From Myxococcus stipitatus (GTDB lineage: Bacteria; Myxococcota; Myxococcia; Myxococcales; Myxococcaceae), in the NCBI RefSeq assembly GCF_038561935.1, contig NZ_CP102770.1, positions 9,734,001 to 9,798,000 of the forward strand: DNA of 64,000 nucleotides, given 5' to 3'. Every line of letters starts with the position of its first letter. Positions within the stretch are counted from its first letter, which is position 1. The notes beneath the pieces are model-generated. The model saw only the letters and a program-made list of their open reading frames with translations. It had not been told where the DNA came from and did no database searches. Both the position numbers and the translations under genes were made by a program. Below, piece by piece: positions 3,399-63,480 of the stretch.

Positions 3399-6332
3399 AT
3401 GCTGAAGCGGAATCTGCTTCCAGCGCTCATGACGGCCGTGCTCGTCACGTTCGGCACGGGCTGTGGAGATGAGTGCGTCGACCAGTTTGACTGTCGCACC
3501 GAGAATGGAGACCCGGACGACAACAAGGAGTGGGTCTGCAGCTCGGGAACGTGCGAGCAGCGGCCCATCAATCAGCCTCCCGTGCCGGACTCCGGCACCG
3601 ACGCTGGCACGGATGCCGGGACGGACGCGGGCACGGATGCGGGTACCGACGCCGGCACGGACGCGGGAACGGATGCGGGCACCGACGCGGGCGTGACGTG
3701 TTCTCCGGCGTGCGCCACGGGCGAGCTGTGTGATGTCAGCTCCGGCCGCGCGGGCGTGTGCCGCACCTGCCTCGACTCCGTCGTGGGCACGGGCCAGGAC
3801 GAGGGCTGCGCCGCGGCGACGCCGATGTGCGACATCAGCGCGGGCGGCGGCAAGGGCCTGTGCAAGGCGTGCACGGACACCGCCACGGGCAATGGCCAGG
3901 ACACGGGCTGCTCCGCGCAGTCGCCTGTCTGCGACACCTCCGCGAACAACGGCGCGGGCGCGTGCAAGGCCTGCACGGACTCCGCGTCCGGCAGCGGCCA
4001 GGACACGGGCTGCTCCGCGCAGGCGCCCGTCTGTGACACCTCCGCCGGCAACGGCCAGGGTGTCTGCAAGACGTGCTTCGACACCGCCTCCGGCAATGGC
4101 CAGGACACGGGCTGCTCGGCCGATGCGCCCCTGTGCGACGCCACCGCGAACAACGGCGCGGGCGCGTGCAAGGCCTGCATGGTGACCCAGACGAGCCCGG
4201 ACCTGGGCTGCTCTTCGCCCACCAACATCTGCGACCCCGCCGCGAACAATGGCGTGGGCGCGTGCAAGGTGTGCAACGGGACGCAGGGCTGCGCGCCGTC
4301 CCAGACGTGCAGCGCCGACGGCAACTCCTGCGAGGGCTGCACCGACAACGCCTCCTGCTCCACCACGCCCGAGACGCCGGTGTGCCGCCTGGACCCCGCT
4401 CCCGCGGCGTGCGTCGAGTGCACCACCGACGACACCAGCCACTGCGACGCGAACCAGCCGGCGTGCAACAGCGGCAACTTCTGCGGCTGCACGACCGACG
4501 CGCAGTGCGCGGCCGTGAACGGCAGCAACCTGGACTTCTGCGACCCCCAGGCGGACAACAACCGCGGCCAGTGCGCGGTCTGCGTGACGGATGCCCAGTG
4601 CGCGAGCGCCAACGCGAACACGCCGTTCTGCAACAACAAGACGGAGTGCGTGGCCTGCTTCACGAACAGCCACTGCGGCCTTGCCCAGGTGTGCAACACG
4701 ACGACGCACGCGTGTGAGGCGGCCAACGGCCCCACGCCCGCGCAGACCTCCGCGCAGATCCAGGCCATGCTGGACGCGGCGGTGGGCGCCATCGACCTCC
4801 CGGTGACGGGCGCGTTCGTCACGGCCGTCAAGCCCGCCTTCCCGACGCAGGCTGCCACGGAGGCCGTCGGCTTCTTCATCCAGGCGGAGCCCAACGGTCC
4901 GGCGGTGTTCGTGAAGGACGCGACGCTCGCGGGCCAGGTCGCCGTGGGTGACCGGGTGAGCCTGACGGCCGCGGCCAAGGAGATGCCGGCCTCTGGCAGC
5001 AACAAGATGGTCTCCTCCATCAGCGGCTTCACGGTCCTGAGCCAGGGCCACCCCGTGCGCAACCTGGCGACGGCCACCCCCGCGGGCCTCGCGGTGGACC
5101 ACAGCGCGTCGAGCGACCTGGTGACCGCGCTGAACACCTACGAGAACGAGCTCATCACCCTCAAGGGCGGCACCATCCTCAACAACGGAACGGGCCAGGG
5201 CACCGGCTTCACGGGCTTCCAGGTGAAGACCCAGGGCATGCAGACGGGCTCCACCACCTTCCTGCTCCGGATGCCCATCTCCCTCAACCAGGTGCTGGAG
5301 GTCGGGACGAACTGCACGTTCGACTTCACCGGCGCGATGTGGCGCTTCAACGCCAACGCCCAGCCGTCCGTGTTCTCCGCTTCCGACCTGGTGCTGGGTT
5401 GCGCGGCGCCCAAGCTCACCCGCGTGGACACCGGCTCGCTCACCTCGGTGGTGCTGACGTTCAGCCGCAACATCAACGTGGCGAGCATCACGAACCTCGC
5501 CAGCCAGTTCACCTTCACGAACGGGCTGACGGCCACGGAGGTCCAGGTGGTGGGCAAGCAGGTCACCCTGACCACGTCCACCCAGACGGCCGGCACCTCG
5601 TACAGCGTCACCGTCGCCAGCTCGGTGAAGGACATGGCCGGCGGCTCCGTCATCGCCCCCGACAACACGCAGACGTTCCTGGGCCACCGTCCCCCCGCCG
5701 TCCTGCGCATCAACGAGGTCCAGCCCAACATCACCGGCAGCCGGGACCTGGTCGAGCTCCTGGTCGTGGGCGCGGGCTCCACGAAGGGCATCCTGTTCCA
5801 GCAGGACTTCCTCTCCCCCACCACGCTCGCGGAGCTCCCCGACGTCTCGGTGGCGGTGGGTGACATCATCGTCCTCCACCTGAACCCGGCCGATACGAAC
5901 TACCAGAGCGAGACCACCGCGAAGGACCAGTTCCCCAAGAGCAGCGTCGCCGTCAATTACGACACGGCCTGGGATTTCCGCGGGACTGGAACCACGGCCA
6001 TCGCGTACTCCAGCCGCGTCCTCGTGGTGAAGGAGCCCCTGGGCCGGATTCAGGACGCGGTGCCGTTCGCCCACGCGACCAACGCGCCTCCGGGCGACTA
6101 CTACAACAACCTCCAGGCCGCTCAGGCCAATGGCGTGTGGCAGCCCGCGAGCTGCGGTGGCGCGCCCTGCTCGGCGACCTCCACGCCGAAGGGCGTCGAG
6201 GTCTCCGCGGATTGGACCAACGTCGCCACGACGGCGGATGGCAACAGCGTCCGCCGCGTCAGCGCGACGGACACGGACATGCGCGCGGACTGGGCCGTCG
6301 GCGCGCAGAGCTGGGGTCTTCCCAACCCATAG
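3399..6332 (+). CDS. Cys-rich repeat lipoprotein with lamin-tail-like C-terminal domain
   Basis: Predicted outer-membrane or surface lipoprotein, 977 residues. The signal peptide ends in a lipobox-like stretch (VTFGTGC, lipidated Cys about residue 22). A spacer of eight GTDA repeats follows (residues 66-97). Residues 105-440 are Cys-rich modules of about 35 residues with a recurring GNGQDTGCSAQ...CDTSANNGAGACKAC pattern, several nearly identical. After about residue 450 the protein becomes a beta-rich, Cys-poor region with an Ig-like segment, then LRINEVQPN...DLVELLVV, which resembles a lamin-tail domain. Such Cys-module lipoproteins are common in myxobacteria and function is unknown. GGGAGGGG at -5 supports the start. 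A strong hairpin terminator follows at 6360. Confidence 0.85.
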   Translation: MLKRNLLPALMTAVLVTFGTGCGDECVDQFDCRTENGDPDDNKEWVCSSGTCEQRPINQPPVPDSGTDAGTDAGTDAGTDAGTDAGTDAGTDAGTDAGVTCSPACATGELCDVSSGRAGVCRTCLDSVVGTGQDEGCAAATPMCDISAGGGKGLCKACTDTATGNGQDTGCSAQSPVCDTSANNGAGACKACTDSASGSGQDTGCSAQAPVCDTSAGNGQGVCKTCFDTASGNGQDTGCSADAPLCDATANNGAGACKACMVTQTSPDLGCSSPTNICDPAANNGVGACKVCNGTQGCAPSQTCSADGNSCEGCTDNASCSTTPETPVCRLDPAPAACVECTTDDTSHCDANQPACNSGNFCGCTTDAQCAAVNGSNLDFCDPQADNNRGQCAVCVTDAQCASANANTPFCNNKTECVACFTNSHCGLAQVCNTTTHACEAANGPTPAQTSAQIQAMLDAAVGAIDLPVTGAFVTAVKPAFPTQAATEAVGFFIQAEPNGPAVFVKDATLAGQVAVGDRVSLTAAAKEMPASGSNKMVSSISGFTVLSQGHPVRNLATATPAGLAVDHSASSDLVTALNTYENELITLKGGTILNNGTGQGTGFTGFQVKTQGMQTGSTTFLLRMPISLNQVLEVGTNCTFDFTGAMWRFNANAQPSVFSASDLVLGCAAPKLTRVDTGSLTSVVLTFSRNINVASITNLASQFTFTNGLTATEVQVVGKQVTLTTSTQTAGTSYSVTVASSVKDMAGGSVIAPDNTQTFLGHRPPAVLRINEVQPNITGSRDLVELLVVGAGSTKGILFQQDFLSPTTLAELPDVSVAVGDIIVLHLNPADTNYQSETTAKDQFPKSSVAVNYDTAWDFRGTGTTAIAYSSRVLVVKEPLGRIQDAVPFAHATNAPPGDYYNNLQAAQANGVWQPASCGGAPCSATSTPKGVEVSADWTNVATTADGNSVRRVSATDTDMRADWAVGAQSWGLPNP
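3594..3689 (+). repeat. Eight tandem 12-bp units encoding (GTDA)8
   Basis: Imperfect 12-bp tandem units encode GTDA eight times in a row. Synonymous third-base differences (GGC/GGG/GGA/GGT, GAC/GAT) show the array is maintained at protein level. It acts as a flexible linker between the lipid anchor and the Cys-rich modules and could vary in copy number by slippage. Confidence 0.9.
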
Positions 6333-24690: not shown

Positions 24691-24997
24691 GGCGGAACCG
24701 TACCAGGAAGCCCACGACTTCCAGTCGCTCTCCGATTGGCCAGGCACAAAGGGGCAGGGGTTTTTCTCTGAACCCATGCCCCGCGCCTATCAAAACCCCG
24801 ACGCTCCTCGTGTCGAGTTCCACGGCAAGGCGTGGAGCCGATGGGGATTCATTCATTCAGGACCACACCTCTTGGCCTGAACCTTTCCCTCCTCGGGGCG
24901 CACGTTTTTCCACTGAGTTTTCTCAGCGTCTACAACCGCCAAGCAAGGTGTTGAGGGGCCACCCATCGGAAATCCGAACCGGGGGGGCCACCCTGAA

Positions 24998-25261
24998 CCA
25001 CTCGCGGAAACCGCACCATCTATCAGTGGCTGGGCACCGTCGGACGTAGCCGAAATGGCTTGGGCAATTCGTCGCGTGAGCCACTCTCGGAAACCGCACC
25101 ATCTATTAGGGGCTGGGCACCATCAGCCGTGACCGGAAATGGCTTGGGAAATTCGTCGCGTGAGCCACTCGCGGAAACCGCACCCATTTACTTGAGGTCA
25201 GCACACCGCCAGTCGCGGCCAAAGAAGACCCAGCGGAGCCAGTCGCAGAAAGCGTCCCCAT
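24998..25261. repeat. Iteron-like repeats, four units
   Basis: A unit beginning CCACTCGCGGAAACCGCACC recurs at 24998, 25081 and 25165 (periods 83 and 84 bp), with a degenerate fourth copy at 25239. The first two units are similar along their whole length (GGCTGGGCACC, AATGGCTTGGG and ATTCGTCGCGTGAG blocks recur). The array fills the gap between divergent cargo and replication genes, directly upstream of the winged-helix gene. It resembles origin iterons or a partition/operator array. The rest of the gap (24691-24997) holds no gene I can see. Confidence 0.75.
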
Positions 25262-52930: not shown

Positions 52931-53155
52931 ATGAGCCCCCACGATGAGACGCTGCTGAAGGTCGACGGAATGACGTGCCGGTCCTGCGTCCGCCACGTCA
53001 ACGACGCGCTCCGAGACCTCGACGGCGTGCAGGACGTCAACGTCTGGTTCGACCGCGGCCAGGTGCTGGTGAAGCACGACGCGGCCACCGCGAAGGTCAG
53101 CGCGCTCATCGACGCGCTCCGGGACGCTGGCTACGAATCCGCGCCGGCCGCGTGA
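52931..53155 (+). CDS. copZ: Copper chaperone, HMA domain (CopZ-like)
   Basis: Cytosolic metal-binding protein of 74 residues with one heavy-metal-associated domain: LKVDGMTCRSCVRHVNDALR (metal-binding Cys in MTCRSC) and the strand-helix end VSALIDALRDAGY. The ferredoxin-like fold carries Cu(I) to a P-type ATPase such as the CopA encoded at 61132-63414. Its upstream region bears the TGTAA-N17-CGTT motif shared by the other copper genes here. It faces the sigma factor gene convergently, with a hairpin between. Confidence 0.88.
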   Translation: MSPHDETLLKVDGMTCRSCVRHVNDALRDLDGVQDVNVWFDRGQVLVKHDAATAKVSALIDALRDAGYESAPAA

Positions 53156-53216: not shown

Positions 53217-53798
53217 TCAGGCCGTCGAAGGCTCACGGCCTCCGGCCCCTGGCACGCCACAGGTGCAGTCCAGACAGCCCTCCGAGGCACAGGCACCACA
53301 CGAGACCTGCAGCTGCTTCTTGAGCGCCTTGCGCGCTCGATGCAGCCGCACGGCCGCGTTCCTGGACGTAATCCCCACCTCGCGTGCGAACTGCGGCAGG
53401 CGGGTCCCCTCCATCGAGACGCGCCGCAGGGCCTCCGCATACTCGGGCTTGAGCGAGCCCGCGACGCGCCCCACGCACGGGCAGACGGCTCGCGTGCGCT
53501 CCACCTCGGGCGGCTGGGCCTCCTCGAACTCGCGCGCCATCGCGGCCAGCGCCCGCTCCGACGTGCCTCGTCGCCGGTAGTGGTCGATGACCGCGTGGTG
53601 GAGCACCCGGTAGAACCACACCGTCAGGGAGGCCTTCCCATGCAGCGCCTCCGCCCGGTCCAGGCCCCGGACGAACGCGTCCTGGACCAGGTCCTCCGCC
53701 GCCGCGCGGCTGCCCACCTTCTGCTCGACGAAGCGCAGGAACTCCGGACGGTGCTCCATCAACAGGGCCAGCACGTCCTCGGACAAGGGCGCCTTCAC
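53217..53798 (-). CDS. corE: ECF sigma factor of the CorE type (Cys-rich, copper-linked)
   Basis: Sigma factor of 193 residues. Sigma-2 (VQDAFVRGLDRAEAL, LTVWFYRVLHHAVIDHYRRRG) and sigma-4 (LPQFAREVGITSRNAAVRLHRARK) regions are plain. A CPC motif (C106, C108) lies in the linker between them and the C terminus carries C167, C170, C175, C178 and C180. In M. xanthus CorE, a linker CxC and a C-terminal Cys-rich domain bind Cu and control DNA binding without an anti-sigma factor. The same architecture, beside copper genes with a shared upstream motif, strongly suggests this activity here. GTG 53798 follows GGAGGAG by 5 bp. No TGTAA-N17-CGTT motif lies upstream of it, so it is not obviously autoregulated. 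Confidence 0.88.
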   Translation of the reverse strand: MKAPLSEDVLALLMEHRPEFLRFVEQKVGSRAAAEDLVQDAFVRGLDRAEALHGKASLTVWFYRVLHHAVIDHYRRRGTSERALAAMAREFEEAQPPEVERTRAVCPCVGRVAGSLKPEYAEALRRVSMEGTRLPQFAREVGITSRNAAVRLHRARKALKKQLQVSCGACASEGCLDCTCGVPGAGGREPSTA

Positions 53799-53889: not shown

Positions 53890-55212
53890 TCAGCCGAAGT
53901 GGACGTCCGGGTCGATGCCATCCGCGGCGAGCTTCGCCGGGTCCGCCTTGTCGGCGACCGTGCCCTTCGGGTGCGCGAACCAGCCGCTGCCGTCCTCCGT
54001 CTCCGGGTTCTCACGCACCTTGAGCACCGTGAACATGCCGCCCATGTCGATGGAGCCGAACGGCCCCTTGCCGCCCTTCATCGGGATGCTGTTCGCCGGC
54101 ACGGGCATGCCCATCTCCTCCATGCCGCCCATGCCCGCCTGACCCATCGTCATGTACTGCGGCACCAGCGCCTGCACGTGCTGGTCGATGGTCCTCGCGT
54201 TCGCCCCCACCGTCACCGGCGCCTCGTGACCCATCTGGTTCATCACGTGGTGGGTCATGTGGCAGTGCATCGCCCAGTCGCCCGGCTCATCCGCGACGAA
54301 CTCGATGACGCGCGTGCTGCCCACCGGGACGAGCACGGACGTCTCCGGGTAGCGCGCGGACTCGGGCACGAAGCCTCCGTCGGTGCCCGTCATCTCGAAG
54401 TACAGGCCGTGCAGGTGGATGGGGTGATGGTCCATCGCGGACAGGTTGCCGAAGCGGATGCGCACGCGCTCGCCGCGTCCGATGATGAGCGGCTCCGTGG
54501 CGGGGAAGGCCTTGGAGTTGAACGTGAGGACGTTGAAGTCGCTCATCGCGTTGGGGTCCGGCCGGCGCATGCCCGGCAGCACCTTCCACTCGTGGGTCAT
54601 CAGCGCGAAGTCGCGGTCCACGCGAGGGCCCCGCGGACGCTTGGGGTGGACGATGAGCATGCCCATCATCCCCAGCGCCATCTGCGTCATCTCGTCGTAG
54701 TGCGGGTGATACATGTACGTGCCCGCGCGGTTCAGCGTGAACTCGTAGGCGAACGTCTCCCCCGGCGCGATGGGGCGCTGGTTGAGGCCGGACACGCCGT
54801 CCATGCCGTTGGGCAGGATGAGGCCGTGCCAGTGCACGGTGGTGGGCTCGGGCAGCCGGTTGGTGACGTAGATGCGGATGCGGTCGCCCTCCACCGCCTC
54901 GATGGTGGGCCCCGGCGTCGAGCCGTTGTAACCCCACGCCTCCACCTCCAGCCCGGGAGCGAAGGTGTGCTTCACCGGCATCGCCACCAGGTGGCCCACC
55001 TTCACGCCACGCACCACCTTCCAGGGCAGCGTCGAGCCGTTGGGCGTGACGACGGCCACCTGCCCTCCCGGCGCGACGATGCGAGGCTTCTCGGCCCGGG
55101 CCCTGACGGCCGTGGCGGGCCCGAGGTTCGACGAGGTCTGCGCGAGCGCCTGGCCAGCGAGCAACGTGCCGCCAGCGAGTGCTCCCAGCTGCATGAATTC
55201 CCTGCGGTCCAT
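53890..55212 (-). CDS. Tat-exported multicopper oxidase
   Basis: Predicted periplasmic cuprous oxidase or laccase-like enzyme, 440 residues. MDRREFMQLGALAGGTLLAG is a Tat signal (RRxF). The four copper-ligand segments occur in order: VHWHGLILPNG, MYHPHYDEMTQMA, HHPIHLHGLYFEMTG and WAMHCHMTHHVMNQMG, which together supply type 1, 2 and 3 sites; the type 1 Met ligand follows in HHVMNQMGHEAP. A Met/Gly-rich part (MTMGQAGMGGMEEMGM) is typical of copper-tolerance oxidases. It would oxidise Cu(I) to less toxic Cu(II) outside the membrane. It is the last gene of an operon with the His-rich and CusC-like genes. Confidence 0.92.
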   Translation of the reverse strand: MDRREFMQLGALAGGTLLAGQALAQTSSNLGPATAVRARAEKPRIVAPGGQVAVVTPNGSTLPWKVVRGVKVGHLVAMPVKHTFAPGLEVEAWGYNGSTPGPTIEAVEGDRIRIYVTNRLPEPTTVHWHGLILPNGMDGVSGLNQRPIAPGETFAYEFTLNRAGTYMYHPHYDEMTQMALGMMGMLIVHPKRPRGPRVDRDFALMTHEWKVLPGMRRPDPNAMSDFNVLTFNSKAFPATEPLIIGRGERVRIRFGNLSAMDHHPIHLHGLYFEMTGTDGGFVPESARYPETSVLVPVGSTRVIEFVADEPGDWAMHCHMTHHVMNQMGHEAPVTVGANARTIDQHVQALVPQYMTMGQAGMGGMEEMGMPVPANSIPMKGGKGPFGSIDMGGMFTVLKVRENPETEDGSGWFAHPKGTVADKADPAKLAADGIDPDVHFG

Positions 55213-55255
55213 GATGGGTGTCCTTCTCGAATCCAGAGTGCCGTGAGGCAAGAGG

Positions 55256-56713
55256 TCAATGAGCGTCGGAGGCGGGCGCGGCGCCGGAGGCCGAGGCCGC
55301 CGAGGAGATGCGCGTGGGGGCCAGCTCCAATCCCTCGTGCCGGCCCGCGAGCAGCTGCTCCAGCGCGGCGCGAGCGCGGTGGTGCTCCAGCAGCGTGTCC
55401 ACGTAGGTGCTGGCCGCGTTCGTCACGTTGTCCTGCGCGCGCAGCAGGTCGAAGACGCCCAGCTGCATCGCGTTGTACTGGAGCACCGTCTCCTCCAGCG
55501 CCTTGCGCGTGGCGGGCAGGAGGACGTCGCGCACGTGCTTCGCGCGGCTCGCGGTGGACTCCACCCGGAAGCGGGTCTGCCGCAGCGACGCGCGGATGGA
55601 GGTGGCCGTCGCCTCGTAGCGGGCCTTCAGGGACTCTCGCGAGGAGAGGGCCGAGATGCGCTCGCCGCGCTTGCGGTCGAAGAGCGGCACGCCGACCTTG
55701 ATGTGCGCGCCCATCTGCCAGCGGTCGTCTTCTCGCTCACCGCTGACTCCACCGGAGACGTCCGGGAGGAAGCCCTCGGTCGCCGCGAGCTTGCGGCGCA
55801 GCTCCGCGGCCTCCATGCGTCCGCGCAGCGCGGACAGGTCGAGGCTCGACTCGATGGCGCGAGCCTCCAGCCCATCCTGCTTGCTCAGCGCGTCCGACGG
55901 GTCGCCGAGGAGCGAGTCCACGGTCCACTGCGTCCCGGCGCCGAAGACACCGAGCAGCACATTGAGAGCCTCACGGGAGTCCTGGACTCCGTTCTCCGCC
56001 TCGGCCACGGCGAGACGGGCGGACTCCACGGCGGAGCGCTCGGTGGCGAGGTCGAGGGCGCGGAGGTTGCCCACCTTCTCCAGCTCCGCGGCCGTGGCGT
56101 AGCGCGCCTGGGCGTTGCGGAGCGCGAGGTTGCGCAGCTCGAGCTGCTGGCGGCGCGCCTGGACGTCGTAGAAGGCGAGCCGGGTGCGGTAGGCGAGGCT
56201 GAGCACCTCGCCGGCCGTGCGGGCGCGCTCGGACGCGCGCTCGGCCAGGGCCACGCCTCGGCGCTGCGGGAGGAGGAGGAGGTCGGACAGGCTGTACTCG
56301 ACGCCCACGCCGACTTGCAGCTCGTGCTCACCGCCGGGCTTGCTCAGCTCGAGCTCCAGCTCGGGGATGGGCGGGAGGCTGGCCTGCACCAGGTTGCCCG
56401 TGGCGATGCCCAGCTCGTGCATGGCCGCGCGGAGGTCCCGGTTGTTCAGCAGCGCGATGCGCACCGCGGAGTCGGCCGTGAGCGGCTTGGCGAGCATCTC
56501 CCTCACGGCGGCGTCGATGTCCTCGCCGCGCTGGGCTTCGCCGGTGAGCGCGGGGACCGGAACCTCGGGCGTCCAGCGAGGCTCCAGCGTCGAGCGGACA
56601 TCACGGACGTCATCGGCGTAGGGGACGGAGACGCAGCCACCGAGGACGAGTGAGGTGGCCAGCAGGGCGCCCTGAGCGGGCTTCTTCCAACGGGAGGATG
56701 ACCAGGTCTTCAT
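55256..56713 (-). CDS. CusC/TolC-like outer-membrane efflux lipoprotein
   Basis: Outer-membrane efflux channel of 485 residues. Lipobox LVLGGC near residue 27 gives a lipidated Cys, as in CusC and OprM. Two copies of the helical/barrel repeat are visible, with the coiled-coil segments rich in Ala, Arg and Glu (RSAVESARLAVAEAENGVQ, YNAMQLGVFDLLRAQDNVT) and strands such as GVGVEYSLSDLLLL. It would form a trimeric conduit for copper export from the periplasm. No CusA/CusB pump and adaptor genes are in the window, so they may lie elsewhere. It lies 43 bp before the oxidase ATG and 24 bp after the His-rich gene stop; one operon. Confidence 0.9.
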   Translation of the reverse strand: MKTWSSSRWKKPAQGALLATSLVLGGCVSVPYADDVRDVRSTLEPRWTPEVPVPALTGEAQRGEDIDAAVREMLAKPLTADSAVRIALLNNRDLRAAMHELGIATGNLVQASLPPIPELELELSKPGGEHELQVGVGVEYSLSDLLLLPQRRGVALAERASERARTAGEVLSLAYRTRLAFYDVQARRQQLELRNLALRNAQARYATAAELEKVGNLRALDLATERSAVESARLAVAEAENGVQDSREALNVLLGVFGAGTQWTVDSLLGDPSDALSKQDGLEARAIESSLDLSALRGRMEAAELRRKLAATEGFLPDVSGGVSGEREDDRWQMGAHIKVGVPLFDRKRGERISALSSRESLKARYEATATSIRASLRQTRFRVESTASRAKHVRDVLLPATRKALEETVLQYNAMQLGVFDLLRAQDNVTNAASTYVDTLLEHHRARAALEQLLAGRHEGLELAPTRISSAASASGAAPASDAH

Positions 56714-56737: not shown

Positions 56738-57334
56738 TCAGTGCTGGTGCTGGTCATGAGCAGGGGCCGGCGCGTTGCCACCCGTGTGCCCCGTGTGTCC
56801 GTCGTGAGGCTTCTTCGAGTCCTGGCCGTGTCCCGAGTGGTCGCCCTTGTTCGCGGCGCCACCACCCTGCGGCATCGAGTGTCCGGAGTGGTCACCCTCG
56901 CTCTTGTTCGTGGCGCCACCACCGTTCGGCATCGAGTGCCCGGAGTGGTCGCCCGCACCCTTGTTCGCGGCGCCGCCACCGTTCGGCATCGAGTGCCCGG
57001 AGTGGTCACCCGCGCCCTTGTGCTCGCGGCCCTGGCCGCTGACGCCGTGGTTCATGTGATGCCCACCGTGCCCGCTCGCACCCTCGTTCGTGGCGCCACC
57101 CCCGTGGTGGCCATGATGCCCGTGGCCACCGCCCTGCTCCGCCACCGAGGGCGCCACCCCGGCGGGGGCGAGCAGCGGATCCGCATCGGCGAGCACCGCG
57201 ACCGCGTCCGCCCGAGGGGCCTCCTCGGCACGGATGGACGTGGGAGACGCGGGGTTCGCGTCGAGCTCGGCCCACGGGGTGGACGCACAGGCGGAGAGGG
57301 GCGCCAGGAAGGAGAGTACGAGGAGCTTCTTCAT
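56738..57334 (-). CDS. His/Met-rich repeat lipoprotein, likely copper-binding
   Basis: Lipoprotein of 198 residues. The signal MKKLLVLSFLAPLSAC ends in a lipobox (Cys16). Residues 70-198 are extremely rich in His, Gly and Met: GGGHGHHGHHGGG, then repeats of GDHSGHSMPNGGGAANKGA (19 residues, 57 bp) and HDGHTGHTGG. Spaced His/Met clusters fit Cu(I)/Cu(II) binding or buffering in the periplasm or at the outer membrane. It is first in the operon with the CusC-like and oxidase genes, behind a TGTAA-N17-CGTT promoter that ends 41 bp upstream of its ATG. AAGGA supports the start. Confidence 0.85.
   Translation of the reverse strand: MKKLLVLSFLAPLSACASTPWAELDANPASPTSIRAEEAPRADAVAVLADADPLLAPAGVAPSVAEQGGGHGHHGHHGGGATNEGASGHGGHHMNHGVSGQGREHKGAGDHSGHSMPNGGGAANKGAGDHSGHSMPNGGGATNKSEGDHSGHSMPQGGGAANKGDHSGHGQDSKKPHDGHTGHTGGNAPAPAHDQHQH
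56840..57017 (-). repeat. 57-bp tandem repeats in the His-rich gene
   Basis: Three near-identical 57-bp units (19 codons), with recurrence points at 56846, 56903, 56960 and 57017, encode DHSGHSMP-containing repeats. In-frame period and few synonymous differences suggest recent duplication and possible copy-number variation. Confidence 0.88.
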
Positions 57335-57374: not shown

Positions 57375-57402
57375 CTAACGAGAAAGGCGCCGCGGAATTA
57401 CA
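57375..57402 (-). promoter_or_regulatory. TGTAA-N17-CGTT promoter of the His-rich/efflux/oxidase operon
   Basis: On the - strand, TGTAA (57398-57402) is followed after 17 bp by CGTTAG (57375-57380). The motif ends 41 bp upstream of the ATG at 57334. Confidence 0.75.
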
Positions 57403-57412
57403 GGGGCCTTTC

Positions 57413-57793
57413 TCACGACTCCGCGATGAGGCGACCGCGCAGCATGTTCATGCCGCACGTGAAGTCGTATGCACCCTCCTTGAGGGCGGGCAGGTCGATG
57501 CTCACCACCCGTCCCGTCGGCAGCGTGCGCGAGACCCCCAGGTCCCCCAGGACGAACTGCTCCGAGCAAGCCGAACGGTCCGTGCGCAGCACGTTGAGCT
57601 TCACTGGCATCCCCGCGCGGACCACGATGCGGTCGGGCCGGTAGCCGCCGTCCACCATCAGGTCCACCTGCTGCGTGCCACCCGCCTCGCTCTTCGCCCG
57701 GGTGCGCTGGCGCGGCCCGAAGAAGAACAACCCCGTCCCCGCCGCCGCCACCAGACTGCTCGCCACCACCATCACTTCCGTCGTGTCCAACAT
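57413..57793 (-). CDS. Membrane-tethered cupredoxin
   Basis: Protein of 126 residues. An N-terminal transmembrane segment (VMVVASSLVAAAGTGLFFFG) anchors it, and the rest is a cupredoxin domain (IVVRAGMPVKLNVLRTDRSA) with copper ligands visible: ACSEQF, then TCGMNM near the C terminus (Cys, Met and Met). A cupredoxin of this class may hand copper to or from the CopA ATPase or oxidase. GGGAG 8 bp upstream supports ATG 57793. It has its own TGTAA-N17-CGTT promoter, shared with the divergent PadR region. Confidence 0.82.
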   Translation of the reverse strand: MLDTTEVMVVASSLVAAAGTGLFFFGPRQRTRAKSEAGGTQQVDLMVDGGYRPDRIVVRAGMPVKLNVLRTDRSACSEQFVLGDLGVSRTLPTGRVVSIDLPALKEGAYDFTCGMNMLRGRLIAES

Positions 57794-57874
57794 GGCCGTC
57801 TCCCAGGTAGGGCTGTCGTGCGGCACGCCCCGGAGCACCTCGCGCCCCGGCGTCCCGCGCCGCCTTCATCCCCA

Positions 57875-57902
57875 CTAACGAGAGCGCCCCACGGCTCTTA
57901 CA
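57875..57902 (-). promoter_or_regulatory. TGTAA-N17-CGTT promoter of the cupredoxin gene
   Basis: On the - strand, TGTAA (57898-57902) and CGTTAG (57875-57880) are 17 bp apart, ending 82 bp upstream of the cupredoxin ATG. Confidence 0.75.
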
Positions 57903-57997: not shown

Positions 57998-58339
57998 ATG
58001 CGAATCGACCTGCTCCAGGGGACGCTGGACATGCTCATCCTCAAGGCGCTCACGGGCGGGCCGATGCACGGCTACGCGGTGACCAGCTGGCTGCAGCGGA
58101 CGACGGACGACGCGCTCCAGGTGGAGGAGGGCTCGCTGTATCCCGCGCTGCACCGCATGACGAAGCGGGGCTGGGTGAAGTCCGATTGGGGCGTCTCGGA
58201 GAACAACCGCCGGGCGCGCTTCTACACCCTCACGGCGGAGGGAAAGCGGCAGCTCAAGGAGGAGTCCACCTCCTGGGCGCGGCTGACGGAGGCTGTCGCC
58301 AAGGTCCTCCATTCCCGTCCCGCGACCCAGGTCGCCTGA
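57998..58339 (+). CDS. PadR-family transcriptional regulator
   Basis: Repressor of 113 residues with the PadR winged helix: LLQGTLDMLILKALTGGPMH, GYAVTSWLQR, EGSLYPALHRMTKRGWVKS and RRARFYTLTAEGKRQLKEE, the standard family motifs. The C-terminal helix is short, as in PadR-s2 proteins. Two dyad operators immediately upstream suggest autoregulation. The next gene, 18 bp downstream, is an ADOP permease, which is the usual partner of PadR in Acidobacteria and Myxococcales and probably the regulated target. Confidence 0.9.
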   Translation: MRIDLLQGTLDMLILKALTGGPMHGYAVTSWLQRTTDDALQVEEGSLYPALHRMTKRGWVKSDWGVSENNRRARFYTLTAEGKRQLKEESTSWARLTEAVAKVLHSRPATQVA

Positions 58340-58357
58340 GCCAAGGAGCGCTGTGCC

Positions 58358-61060
58358 ATGGGCTGGATGGTGGACCGTTACCGCACCCTGCGCTCCCTGT
58401 TGTGGCGCGAGCGACTCGAGGACGACGTGGCCGAGGAGCTGGAGTTCCACCTCGCCATGCGCACCGACGAGCTCGTCGCCCAGGGAATGTCACCCGAACA
58501 AGCCCGAGCCGAGGCACTCCGGCGCTTCGGCGACGTGGACACCTATCGGAGACAGACTCACGTGATTGACCAGGACATCGCGCACGAGCGGCGGCGCATC
58601 GAGCTGTGGGACATGGTCCAACGCGAGACGCGCCAGGCGCTGCGCTCGCTCGCCCGCAGCCCGACCTTCGCGGTGATGACGGTGCTCACGCTGGCGCTCG
58701 GCCTCGGCGCGACGACGGCGCTCTACTCGGTGGTGGACGCGGTGGTCCTCCGCCCGCTGCCCTACGCCGCGCCCGAGCAGCTCGTCTCGCTCGACAGCCG
58801 CGTGCCGGGCGTCTCCCCCGAGGCCCGCTGGGGTCTGTCCGAGGCGGGCTACTTCTACTTCGCGCGAGAGGCCCCCAGCCTCGCGAGCCTGGGCGTGTTC
58901 TCCGCGAGGAGCGCCAGCCTCGCCAGTGACGCGGGCCCCGTGCGCGTGGACACCGCCTGGGTGAGCGCGAGCATGATGGACGTGCTGCGCGCCCAGCCCG
59001 CGCTCGGCCGCCTCCTCCCGAGGGAGAGCGACCTGCCGGGTGCTCCTCGCATCGCGGTCCTCGGGCACGCCTTCTGGGTCCGGCAGTACGGCGCCGACCC
59101 GCGCGTGCTGGGCACGGTGGTCCACCTGGATGACGTGCCCACCGAAATCGTCGGCGTCATGGCCCCTGGACTCCACCTGCCGGAAGGCACCGTGGACGTC
59201 TGGGCGCCGCTCACGCTCGACCCCGCGCGGCCTCCCGTGAACGCGCACTGGTTGCAGGGCGTGGGACGGCTTCGGGACGGCGTCTCGGCGGCGCGGGCCC
59301 AGGCGGAGCTCACCGGACTCGACCGGCGCCTCCCCGAGCTCTTCCCCAGCGCGTACAGCGAGGAGTTCATGCGCCAGAAGGGCTTCGCCACGGACGTCAC
59401 ACCGCTCAAGCGGCATGTGCTGGGGGACGTGGACCGCGTCCTCTGGATTCTCTTCGGCGCGGTGGGCCTGGTGCTCCTCATCGCCTGCGCCAACGTGGCC
59501 AACCTCTTCCTCGTGCGAGCGGAGAGCCGTCGCCGCGAGCTGGCCGTGCGCTCCGCCCTCGGCGCCGCGCGCGCGGACCTGTCCTGGCATGCGCTCACCG
59601 AGAGCCTGCTGCTGTGCCTCGTGGCGGGTGCGCTCGGCCTGCTCCTCGCGTGGAGCGCGCTCCGGCTGTTGACCTTCCTCGCCCCGGACCACCTGCCGCG
59701 ACTGGGCGAGGTGGGCCTGGATGCGCACGGCGTCGTCTTCACCTTCGCGATATCGGTCATCGCGGGAGTCGTCTTCGGCCTCTTCCCGCTGACGCAGCTG
59801 GGGCGGAGCCTGAGCGCGCTGCGCGAGTCGGGGCGTGGGCTGACGTCCTCGCGTCGCCGCAACCTCGTGCGCTGGGGCATGGTGGTGGGGCAGATGGGGC
59901 TCGCGGTGGTGTTGCTCACGGCGGCGGGGCTCATGCTGCGCAGCTTCTGGGGGCTCTACCACGTCGACTCCGGGCTCAAGACCGAGTCCGCGCTCACCTT
60001 CGACTTCGTCCTGCCCGGGACGCGCTACGGGAGCTACGACGCGGCCAATCGCTTCCATCGGGAGCTGCTCACGCGGCTGGAGGCGGTGCCGGGTGTCACC
60101 CACGCGGGCGCGACCTCGCGGCTTCCGCTGCGGAACTTCAACGGCTGCGCCGCCCTCTTCACCGAGCACGGCCCGCTCGGCGACGACTCCGTCTGTCTGC
60201 CGACCCCGAGCGCCAGCCCGGGGGCCTTCAAGGCCCTGGGCATCCCGCTGCTCGAGGGTCGGGAGTTCACCTGGGAGGACCTGGACGGCAAGGCGGATGG
60301 CGTGGTGGTGACGAAGGCGCTCGCCGAGCGCCTCTGGCCGGGCCAGGACCCGCTCGGCAAGGGCCTCCGCGGCAACGGCCACGAGCCACCGTACTACCGC
60401 GTCATCGGCGTGACGGGTGACATCCGCGCGCAGGGCTTGGACAAGCCGCCCACGCAGGCCGTCTTCTTCCCGCTCGCGCCCGCGGAGAACCTCCCGCTGT
60501 GGGGCCCGTCCCGAGTGATGAGCGTCGTCATCCGCACGTCCACCTCGCGGCCCGAGCAGCTCGCGCCCGTGGTGCGGAGCATCATGAAGGAGCTCGACGC
60601 CACGGTGCCCGTCGCGAACCTCGAGACGCTGGACCGCGTGGTGAGCCAATCCCCCTCGGTGGCGAGGGCCACCTTCTCCCTGCTGCTGCTCGGCATCGCC
60701 GGCGGCATGGCGCTCCTGCTCAGCGCCGTGGGCCTCTACGGCGTCATCAGCTTCATCGTCGGTCAGCGCCGGGGAGAGATTGGCATCCGCGTGGCATTGG
60801 GTGCGCGGGCCAGCCAGGTGGCGGGCATGGTGGTGTTGCAGGTGCTGCGCTTCGCCGGGCTCGGCATCGCGCTGGGCCTCGTGGGTGCGCTGTCGATGAG
60901 CCACCTGCTCTCCGCGTTGCTCTTCGAGGTGAGCCCCACGGACCCCGTCGTCCTCGCCGGCGTCTGCGCGTTGCTCGTCCTCATCGCCGCGCTCGCGAGC
61001 TACGGCCCCGCCCGCCGCGCCTCGCGCGTGGACCCGGCCGAGGTGCTCCGGTCCGAGTAG
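58358..61060 (+). CDS. ADOP-family ABC permease (MacB-like duplicated permease without ATPase)
   Basis: Membrane protein of 900 residues. The N-terminal ADOP domain (AEELEFHLAMRTDELVAQGM, ARAEALRRFGDVDTYRRQT) is followed by two MacB-periplasmic-core plus FtsX repeats: TM helices with TVLTLALGLGATTALYSVV, then LLIACANVANLFLVRAESRR and, at the C terminus, IGIRVALGARASQVAGMVVL. It lacks an ATPase domain and no ATPase gene is adjacent, a known feature of the orphan ADOP group. It may export peptides or lipids with a distant ATPase. Co-transcribed with PadR (18 bp). Confidence 0.9.
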   Translation: MGWMVDRYRTLRSLLWRERLEDDVAEELEFHLAMRTDELVAQGMSPEQARAEALRRFGDVDTYRRQTHVIDQDIAHERRRIELWDMVQRETRQALRSLARSPTFAVMTVLTLALGLGATTALYSVVDAVVLRPLPYAAPEQLVSLDSRVPGVSPEARWGLSEAGYFYFAREAPSLASLGVFSARSASLASDAGPVRVDTAWVSASMMDVLRAQPALGRLLPRESDLPGAPRIAVLGHAFWVRQYGADPRVLGTVVHLDDVPTEIVGVMAPGLHLPEGTVDVWAPLTLDPARPPVNAHWLQGVGRLRDGVSAARAQAELTGLDRRLPELFPSAYSEEFMRQKGFATDVTPLKRHVLGDVDRVLWILFGAVGLVLLIACANVANLFLVRAESRRRELAVRSALGAARADLSWHALTESLLLCLVAGALGLLLAWSALRLLTFLAPDHLPRLGEVGLDAHGVVFTFAISVIAGVVFGLFPLTQLGRSLSALRESGRGLTSSRRRNLVRWGMVVGQMGLAVVLLTAAGLMLRSFWGLYHVDSGLKTESALTFDFVLPGTRYGSYDAANRFHRELLTRLEAVPGVTHAGATSRLPLRNFNGCAALFTEHGPLGDDSVCLPTPSASPGAFKALGIPLLEGREFTWEDLDGKADGVVVTKALAERLWPGQDPLGKGLRGNGHEPPYYRVIGVTGDIRAQGLDKPPTQAVFFPLAPAENLPLWGPSRVMSVVIRTSTSRPEQLAPVVRSIMKELDATVPVANLETLDRVVSQSPSVARATFSLLLLGIAGGMALLLSAVGLYGVISFIVGQRRGEIGIRVALGARASQVAGMVVLQVLRFAGLGIALGLVGALSMSHLLSALLFEVSPTDPVVLAGVCALLVLIAALASYGPARRASRVDPAEVLRSE

Positions 61061-61131: not shown

Positions 61132-63414
61132 TCAAGCCACCGGCTGCGCCGTGGGCAATCGCAGGCTGCGCAACCGCAGGCTGTTGAGCAACACCGACAC
61201 GCTCGACAGCGACATCGCGAGGCTCGCCAGCATGGGCGACAGCAACCAGCCCGTCATCCCGTACAGCAGCCCCGCCGCCACCGGGATGCCCAGGGCGTTG
61301 TAGAGGAACGCCCAGAACAGGTTCTGCCGAATCACGCCCATCGTGGAGCGGGCCAGCCCCAGCGCCGCGGGCAGTCCCCTCAAGTCCGAGCGCAGCAAGG
61401 CAACTCCCGCCGCATCCCGAGCCACATCCGTCCCCGTCCCCATCGCCACGCCCAGGTCCGCCTGGGCCAAGGCCGGCGCGTCGTTGATGCCATCACCCAC
61501 CATGGCCACCTTCCGCCCCTCCGCCTGGAGCGTGCGGACCACGTGCGCCTTGCCCTCCGGCAACACCCCCGCGAACACCCGGTCGATGCCCAGCTTCCGA
61601 GCCACTCGCGACGCGGGGCCCTCATGGTCCCCCGTGAGCATCACCACGTGCATGCCCATGTTCCGCAGCGCCTGCACCGCCGACGCCGCCTCCTCGCGCT
61701 CCGCATCCGCGATGCCGATAGCCCCCACCCACGTCCCATCCACCGCCACCAGCACCGGCGTCTGGCCATCCTCGGTGAGCGCCCGCTCCGCCTCCGCGCT
61801 CCCGGACACGCCGTGCCGCTCCATCATCCGCCGGCTGCCCACGAACACGCGGCGCCCGTCGACCATCGCCTCCACGCCATGCCCCGGCGTGGCGGTGAAC
61901 GACTCGGGCTTGCCCATCTTCAATCCCCGCGCCGTGGCCTCCGCCACCACCGCCCGAGCCAGCGGGTGCTCACTGCCGGACTCCGCGCCCGCCGTCAGCG
62001 CCAGCACATCCTGCTCCGTCAGCTCGCCCGAGGTGATGATGCGCACCACGGCCGGGCGCCCCTGCGTCAGCGTCCCCGTCTTGTCGAGCACCACCGTGTC
62101 GATGTGGCTGGCCCCTTCCAGCGACGCCGCGCTCTTCACCAGCACGCCCAGCTGCGCGCCGCGCCCCATGCCCACCATCAGCGCCGCGGGCGTCGCCAGT
62201 CCCAGCGCGCAAGGGCAGGCGATGACCAGCACCGCCACCGTGTTGAGCACCGCCATCGTCAGGCGCGTCTCCTCGGGAGCCAGCACGAACCACGCCGCGA
62301 AGGTGGCGATGGCGATGAGCAGCACCACCGGCGTGAAGACCCCGCTCACCACATCCGCCAGCCGCGCGATGGGCGCCTTGGTCCCCTGCGCCCGCTCCAC
62401 CACCTGGACAATCTGCTGGAGCGCCGTGTCCGTGCCCACCTTCGCCGCGCGGAAGACCAGCCGGCCCGTGCCGTTCATCGTCCCCGCGAAGACCTCCGCG
62501 CCCGCCGTCTTCCCCACCGGCAGGCTCTCACCGGTGAGCATCGACTCGTCCACCGACGACGCGCCCTCCACCACGGAGCCGTCGACCGGAATGGACTGCC
62601 CCGGGCGCACCACCACCTGGTCGCCCACGCGCACCTGCGACAGCGCCACCTCGCGCTCGACGCCGTCTCGCAACACGGTGGCGTTGGCCGGAGCCAGCGC
62701 CTGGAGGCGCCGGATGGCATCCCCCGCGCGGGTGCGGGCCCGCGACTCCAGGAAGCGGCCCAGCAGCACGAAGCCAATCACCGCGGCGGCGGCCTCGAAG
62801 TAGACGGGCAGCGCCGCGCCGTGGTCGCCATGGCCCGCGTGCTCACCGGACGCCCCGAGCGTCGGCCACTGCGTCGCCACCACCGAGTAGAGGAACGCCG
62901 TCCCCGTCCCCAGCGCGACCAGCACGTTCATGTCCGCGGACCGGTGCCGCAGCGCGGCCCACGCCGCCTTGAAGATGGGCGCGCCGCTGTACGCGATGAC
63001 CGGCAGCGTCAGGAGCAGCTGCACCCAGTTGGAGCCCGGGAAGTCCAAGGCCCCGTGCGACATGGCCATCACCACCACCGGCAGGCCGAAGAGCACCGCC
63101 ACCGCCAGCCGGCGGCGCAGGCCCTTCTCCTCGGCGGAGTCCGCGTCGCGGGTGCCCTCGGCCGTCGGCACCTCGGCCTGATAGCCCGCGCTCGCGACGG
63201 CCTCGGTCAGGGTGTGGACGGAGGTGGTCTTCGCGTCGAAGACCACGCTGGCCTTGCGGGTGGCGAAGTTGACGCTGCACTCCTGGACACCCTCCACCTC
63301 GCTCAAGGTGCGCTCCACCCGGCGCGCACAGGCGGCGCACGTCATGCCCGACACGGCGAGGTCCATGCGCTCCAGGGCGCCAGACAGGGAAGGAGATGTC
63401 TCAACGGCGTTCAT
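61132..63414 (-). CDS. copA: P1B-type Cu(+)-ATPase (CopA)
   Basis: Copper-exporting P-type ATPase, 760 residues. One N-terminal HMA domain (GMTCAAC, C26 and C29), then membrane helices and an A domain ([10 protein letters not shown]). The metal-transport CPC is C400-P401-C402 ([15 protein letters not shown]). Phosphorylated D444 lies in DKTGTLTQG, with [10 protein letters not shown] and [20 protein letters not shown] completing the P/N domains. Cytosolic Cu(I) is moved to the periplasm, where the cupredoxin, oxidase and His-rich protein may receive it. GGAGG with 7-nt spacing supports ATG 63414. Promoter: TGTAA-N17-CGTT ending 39 bp upstream. Confidence 0.95.
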
Positions 63415-63452
63415 GGGATTCCTCCAGCCCGCCACCGAGCGGGTCTACCCCA

Positions 63453-63480
63453 CCAACGCGGCACCTCCCGGCGAATTACA
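63453..63480 (-). promoter_or_regulatory. TGTAA-N17-CGTT promoter of copA
   Basis: On the - strand, TGTAA (63476-63480) is followed after 17 bp by CGTTGG (63453-63458), with the ATG at 63414. Confidence 0.75.

Follow-up and report, generated by a model that had tools for sequence, protein, structure and literature searches.

The gene analysed here, from a copper region of Myxococcus stipitatus (the window, the whole stretch of DNA that was analysed, covers 64,000 nucleotides of contig NZ_CP102770.1), is best read as encoding a His/Met metal sponge, a kind of protein already known; the different metal modules found on a similar head in related proteins add to its interest. In full, our preferred reading is that the protein is probably an envelope-tethered, disordered copper buffer of a CorE-type copper response, whose metal module would have been exchanged during evolution. 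New here are the promoter-like motif, a repeat number that differs between species and the differing metal modules on a similar head. The preliminary description of this DNA, a His/Met repeat lipoprotein heading a copper-efflux operon, is confirmed as an observation and partly supported as an interpretation; it lacks the CorE-like sigma factor, the promoter motifs, the conserved head free of His and the differing modules.

Table 1. Features of the copper region (positions in the window; strand; basis of the assignment).
Feature	Positions	Strand	Basis
HMA copper-chaperone-like protein	52931..53155	+	Pfam PF00403 E 1.3e-16
CorE-type ECF sigma factor, CPC linker, Cys-rich C-terminus	53217..53798	-	PF04542 E 2.6e-13
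Multicopper oxidase, CuoB-like by gene order	53890..55251	-	PF07732 E 1e-40, PF07731 E 5.7e-32
TolC/CusC-like outer membrane channel (OEP)	55256..56713	-	Pfam PF02321 E 1.9e-35
Lipoprotein gene, 198 aa: signal peptide and lipobox, His-free head, His/Met-rich tail	56738..57334	-	Open reading frame
Three 57-bp units, each GDHSGHSMP plus linker	56840..57010	-	Tandem Repeats Finder, unit comparison
Head of mature protein, conserved (aa 16-67)	57134..57289	-	11-orthologue alignment and profile comparisons
Promoter-like motif TGTAA-N17-CGTTA, before lipoprotein gene	57376..57402	-	Pattern search
Cupredoxin-like protein, N-terminal membrane segment (by eye)	57413..57838	-	Pfam PF13473 E 2e-19
Second promoter-like motif, before cupredoxin-like gene	57876..57902	-	Pattern search
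CopA-type P1B ATPase, same copper region	61132..63435	-	Domain searches
Third promoter-like motif TGTAA-N17-CGTTG, before CopA	63454..63480	-	Pattern search

The lipobox, LSAC at residues 13–16 after the signal peptide, has the form expected of a bacterial lipoprotein and is present in all 11 orthologues; the single Cys of the protein is the lipid anchor. Every one of its 24 His lies in the tail, with none in the first ~50 mature residues. Tandem Repeats Finder reports a repeat at 56842–57030 (period 57, 3.3 copies, 88% matches, score 297); the three complete units are aa 109–127, 128–146 and 147–165. Between units 50–51 of the 57 nucleotides are identical, and residue changes are confined to the Gly/Ala/Asn linker (unit positions 10, 15, 18 and 19), leaving DHSGHSMP invariant. 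The three 57-bp units and the dense array of likely copper ligands given in the preliminary description are thus real. Searches of Pfam, NCBIfam and PDB with the lipoprotein give no match, and its AlphaFold model, from an alignment only 4 sequences deep, has no fold (pLDDT 48, pTM 0.14). No description of the repeat (DHSGHSMP and variants) or of a His-rich myxobacterial lipoprotein was found in the open-licence literature. The repeat finder lists further tandem repeats in the window at 3792–4179 and 24994–25184 (periods 102 and 84).

Inner-membrane lipoproteins are marked by Lys at position +2. The lipoprotein may lie in the outer membrane or on the surface, since its residue +2 is Ala and not Lys, since position +7 varies (Ala here and in one relative, Ser or Thr in the nine remaining orthologues) and since there is a precedent in FibA, which needs +7 Ala for sorting to the extracellular matrix (PMC3222651).

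On one strand the genes run cupredoxin-like protein, lipoprotein, TolC/CusC-like channel, multicopper oxidase (likely ATG at 55212) and ECF sigma factor; the HMA gene adjoins the sigma factor gene on the opposite strand and the CopA-type ATPase lies upstream. Lipoprotein, channel and oxidase are close-packed, with 24 nt from the lipoprotein stop to the channel ATG, which bears out the earlier placing of channel and oxidase in the same predicted operon. That the lipoprotein gene heads this operon holds for the unit starting at its own motif, directly before it, and is limited to that unit because the cupredoxin-like gene stands just upstream on the same strand. With the channel, the multicopper oxidase and the CorE-type sigma factor following the lipoprotein gene, a copper context fits, and metal binding by the lipoprotein is predicted. 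A PadR regulator and an ADOP-type permease (57998–61060) lie between CopA and the cupredoxin gene; they are on the same side in the near relatives L054 and L055, and at the eight remaining orthologous loci neither was found.

The sigma factor has Cys at 167, 170, 175, 178 and 180, the spacing of CorE Cys 181, 184, 189, 192 and 194. It thereby carries the four invariant C-terminal Cys of CorE-like (ECF44/ECF238) factors (CorE 181, 184, 192 and 194) as well as an equivalent of the copper-type residue, Cys189; CorE Cys206 has no counterpart. The CPC linker (Cys 106 and 108) is the CXC element described as a signature feature of CorE-like ECF sigma factors (PMC8999054). Two of the 11 loci (L061 and L063) have no CorE-like sigma gene beside the oxidase, the best match being elsewhere on the same contig; promoter-like motifs are still present there, with CGTTT ends before the lipoprotein. 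The genome of the window contains a third CorE-like sigma gene (C1:8867441–8867983), 44% identical to that of the window.

At all 11 orthologous loci the motif TGTAA-N17-CGT stands 37–42 nt ahead of the lipoprotein start; simulated sequence gives 3 chance matches in 2.75 Mb. The strict form TGTAA-N16-18-CGTTA has only 2 sites in the 10.2-Mb genome, both here (lipoprotein and cupredoxin), against 4 for the reversed control. The wide form TGTAA-N17-CGTYR shows no excess over its reversed control (7 genome sites versus 11); three of the seven sites belong to this locus, with CopA preceded by the third, and another is near the second CorE-like sigma gene. Of 20 other loci, 17 come from genomes with a CorE-like sigma match, and all of these but L073 (16 of 17) contain the motif somewhere; the three from genomes with no such match (L064, L067 and L069) lack it. 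We infer that the CorE-type sigma factor reads TGTAA-N17-CGT.

At E 1e-5 the lipoprotein was detected in 11 of the 96 genomes of the family, all from the genus of the window and exactly those with a close channel relative (at least 70% identity). The head is conserved and His-free across these 11 orthologues. Every orthologue has 16–27 His, at lengths of 139–217 aa. HxxHxM units number four in the window genome, two, three and two in three near relatives and zero in the seven others, so the suspected variability of the copy number is real between species. The tails of these seven have HxGH units instead, with His only; since the tail is without Met in 7/11 orthologues, HxxHxM is not essential to the lipoprotein family.

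The gene directly upstream of related channels was surveyed at 72 of 73 channel matches, the match whose contig starts inside the channel gene (G094) being left out, with module classes set by a script from motif patterns. Eleven of these genes encode a His-repeat protein, 6 a YHS, 23 an HMBD and 9 an HMBD variant; 6 are bare heads and at 17 loci no gene was found (15 of the 17 in one genus), a class to which the script assigned G045, where an HMBD gene is seen by eye. The second locus of G011 has a truncated head. With the script finding no such gene at 17 of the 72 loci, the channel can function in the absence of the lipoprotein. Pfam searches with ten such proteins support HMBD, with E 3e-15, in the only HMBD protein among them and return YHS in six at E 8e-7 to 7e-4, each short of the gathering score; three were unmatched.

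In profile comparisons the head of the His-repeat group scores 35.5 against two Polyangium His-rich proteins (best of the shuffles 16.6, hhalign probability 94%), 24.4 against the YHS group (best of 100 shuffles 18.0, 63%) and 21.6 against the PPLPGE group (best of the shuffles 13.3, 40%). Because the hhalign probabilities are modest, the shared position upstream of a related channel bears part of the argument. Head homology between the His-repeat group and the main (DPSNPDAPEAP) HMBD group is not claimed (14.65 versus 12.8 in 100 shuffles, 4%). With single sequences, 13 of 16 relatives exceed the top control score of 13.7 when 14 controls are used; a 15th automatic control proved by eye to be a member of the family (L063) and was later removed, and with it none of the 16 does. 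The PPLPGE group comprises two members with HMBD-like motifs, one that is His-rich and five without a module.

The arrangement of module lipoproteins beside channels was not found described in the open-licence literature, and a plasmid search with the HMBD lipoprotein listed mostly P-type ATPases. Two plasmid matches named ‘heavy metal-binding domain’ were set aside, as they lie in NADH-quinone oxidoreductase-like clusters and not at a channel locus. The genome of the window itself has a second copper locus (L081, C1:1302500–1318500), with an HMBD lipoprotein, a channel (31% identical) and an oxidase (63%) on one strand and a CorE-like sigma gene and a P-ATPase on the opposite strand, TGTAA-N17-CGTTG preceding the ATPase. 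The N-terminus of this ATPase shows by eye one YHS-like and two HMBD-like motifs.

As a buffer, the protein would sit in the envelope on a lipid anchor, its short conserved head leading into a disordered His/Met tail to which several copper ions bind. A rise in copper would lead the CorE-type sigma factor to read its putative promoter, so that sponge, outer membrane channel and multicopper oxidase are made together; the tail would then buffer periplasmic copper and keep it near the channel for export and near the oxidase for conversion of Cu(I) to Cu(II). The tail would evolve as repeat units are gained and lost; relatives carry another module altogether on their similar head (YHS, HMBD or His-rich). 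This reading draws on the surrounding copper genes, the Cys spacing of the sigma factor, the motif in all 11 loci and the two sites of its strict form, the co-occurrence of lipoprotein and channel, the invariance of DHSGHSMP, the His content kept despite length variation, the known metal modules carried by related proteins at this position and the fold-less model. Against it stand the seven tails without Met, the 17 channels without the gene, the four-sequence alignment behind the model and the lack of enrichment of the wide motif. The sponge idea of the preliminary description and its copper context gain support from neighbours, regulator type and promoter-like motifs.

The constant placing of the gene immediately ahead of that for the channel, the co-occurrence with the channel and the conserved head could also indicate a metallochaperone, its head docking on channel or oxidase and its tail delivering copper stoichiometrically as CusF does for CusCBA. 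We consider this unlikely: the repeats differ in number and the modules in type although the channel is kept, a pattern that fits a role in capacity more readily than a defined site of hand-over.

Less likely than a buffer, and rather improbable in itself, is a copper-sensing leader of the CutF/CopL/CruR type, whose synthesis and export would control translation of the downstream channel and oxidase, the tail acting on the nascent chain. Like CutF and CopL (PMC9973294), the lipoprotein is small, exported and encoded ahead of a copper oxidase gene, here across the 24-nt gap, and it has a conserved APAPAHDQHQH-like C-terminus. It differs from such leaders in the absence of DUF2946 (Pfam, E 0.01) and of CxxxC, its one Cys being the lipid anchor; there is no dense Pro run at the C-terminus and no special hairpin at the junction to the next gene (z = +0.49; 135 of 200 shuffles fold as well). 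A role in buffering some other metal (zinc, cadmium, nickel or silver), or as a general cation sink rich in His that does not favour copper, would accord with the seven His-only tails and with the weaker cuoB induction by Cd and Zn reported in the CorE study (PMC3107203), but is the least probable option given the oxidase, CopA-type ATPase, cupredoxin and copper-type Cys pattern (Cys189 equivalent) around the gene.

Returning to the buffer, a bolder version, which we put forward tentatively and think doubtful as a whole, sees the family as tethered plug-in metal catchers: the head would dock on or near the channel, the module would be repeatedly exchanged (YHS, HMBD or His/Met arrays) or lost, lineages would thereby retune capacity and metal choice, and perhaps channel and oxidase would clear periplasmic copper without an operon-encoded pump. 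Similar heads and related channels with varied modules and repeat numbers form a natural series for asking how copper tolerance depends on the capacity of the sponge and the type of ligand.

Among known systems, the copper resistance proteins CopA and CopB contain MDHSxM-type repeats. They share with the tail His/Met/Asp/Ser repeats in a copper resistance setting; the window repeats are on a separate small lipoprotein and not part of an oxidase or barrel protein. The CorE regulon of M. xanthus has the same order of channel (MXAN_3424), multicopper oxidase (cuoB, 3425), corE (3426) and HMA gene (3427), the same Cys spacing in the sigma factor and a proposed CorE promoter ahead of the channel gene (PMC3107203). 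The lipoprotein is not named in the available part of that account, and the CorE copper response of myxobacteria would gain it as a further component; in the open-licence literature no paper naming MXAN_3423 was found and a search for MXAN_3422–3424 gave no description of the lipoprotein. Gene A of curA in M. xanthus (MXAN_3421) likewise encodes a copper-induced envelope protein with a His-rich region, but fused to a cupredoxin domain, regulated by CorSR and in another operon (PMC3707914). SilE and PcoE are, like the lipoprotein, small, exported, His/Met-rich and encoded in a metal efflux locus, and they are predicted to be disordered (PMC5008109), as the lipoprotein tail may be too. No sequence relation to them was found, and their paired His/Met motifs are absent from the window tail, whose units are DHSGHSMP (HxxHxM). 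SilE has 10 His in two motifs (MxxHxxxxxHxxMxx and HxxMxxxHxxMxx) and folds on binding (PMC5008109), whereas the window protein is lipid-anchored, with 24 His and HxxHxM/HxGH units in tandem. By analogy, and with relatedness not claimed, the disordered molecular sponge SilE, which takes up to eight Ag(I) or six Cu(II) (PMC5008109), would be the nearest functional model for the lipoprotein.
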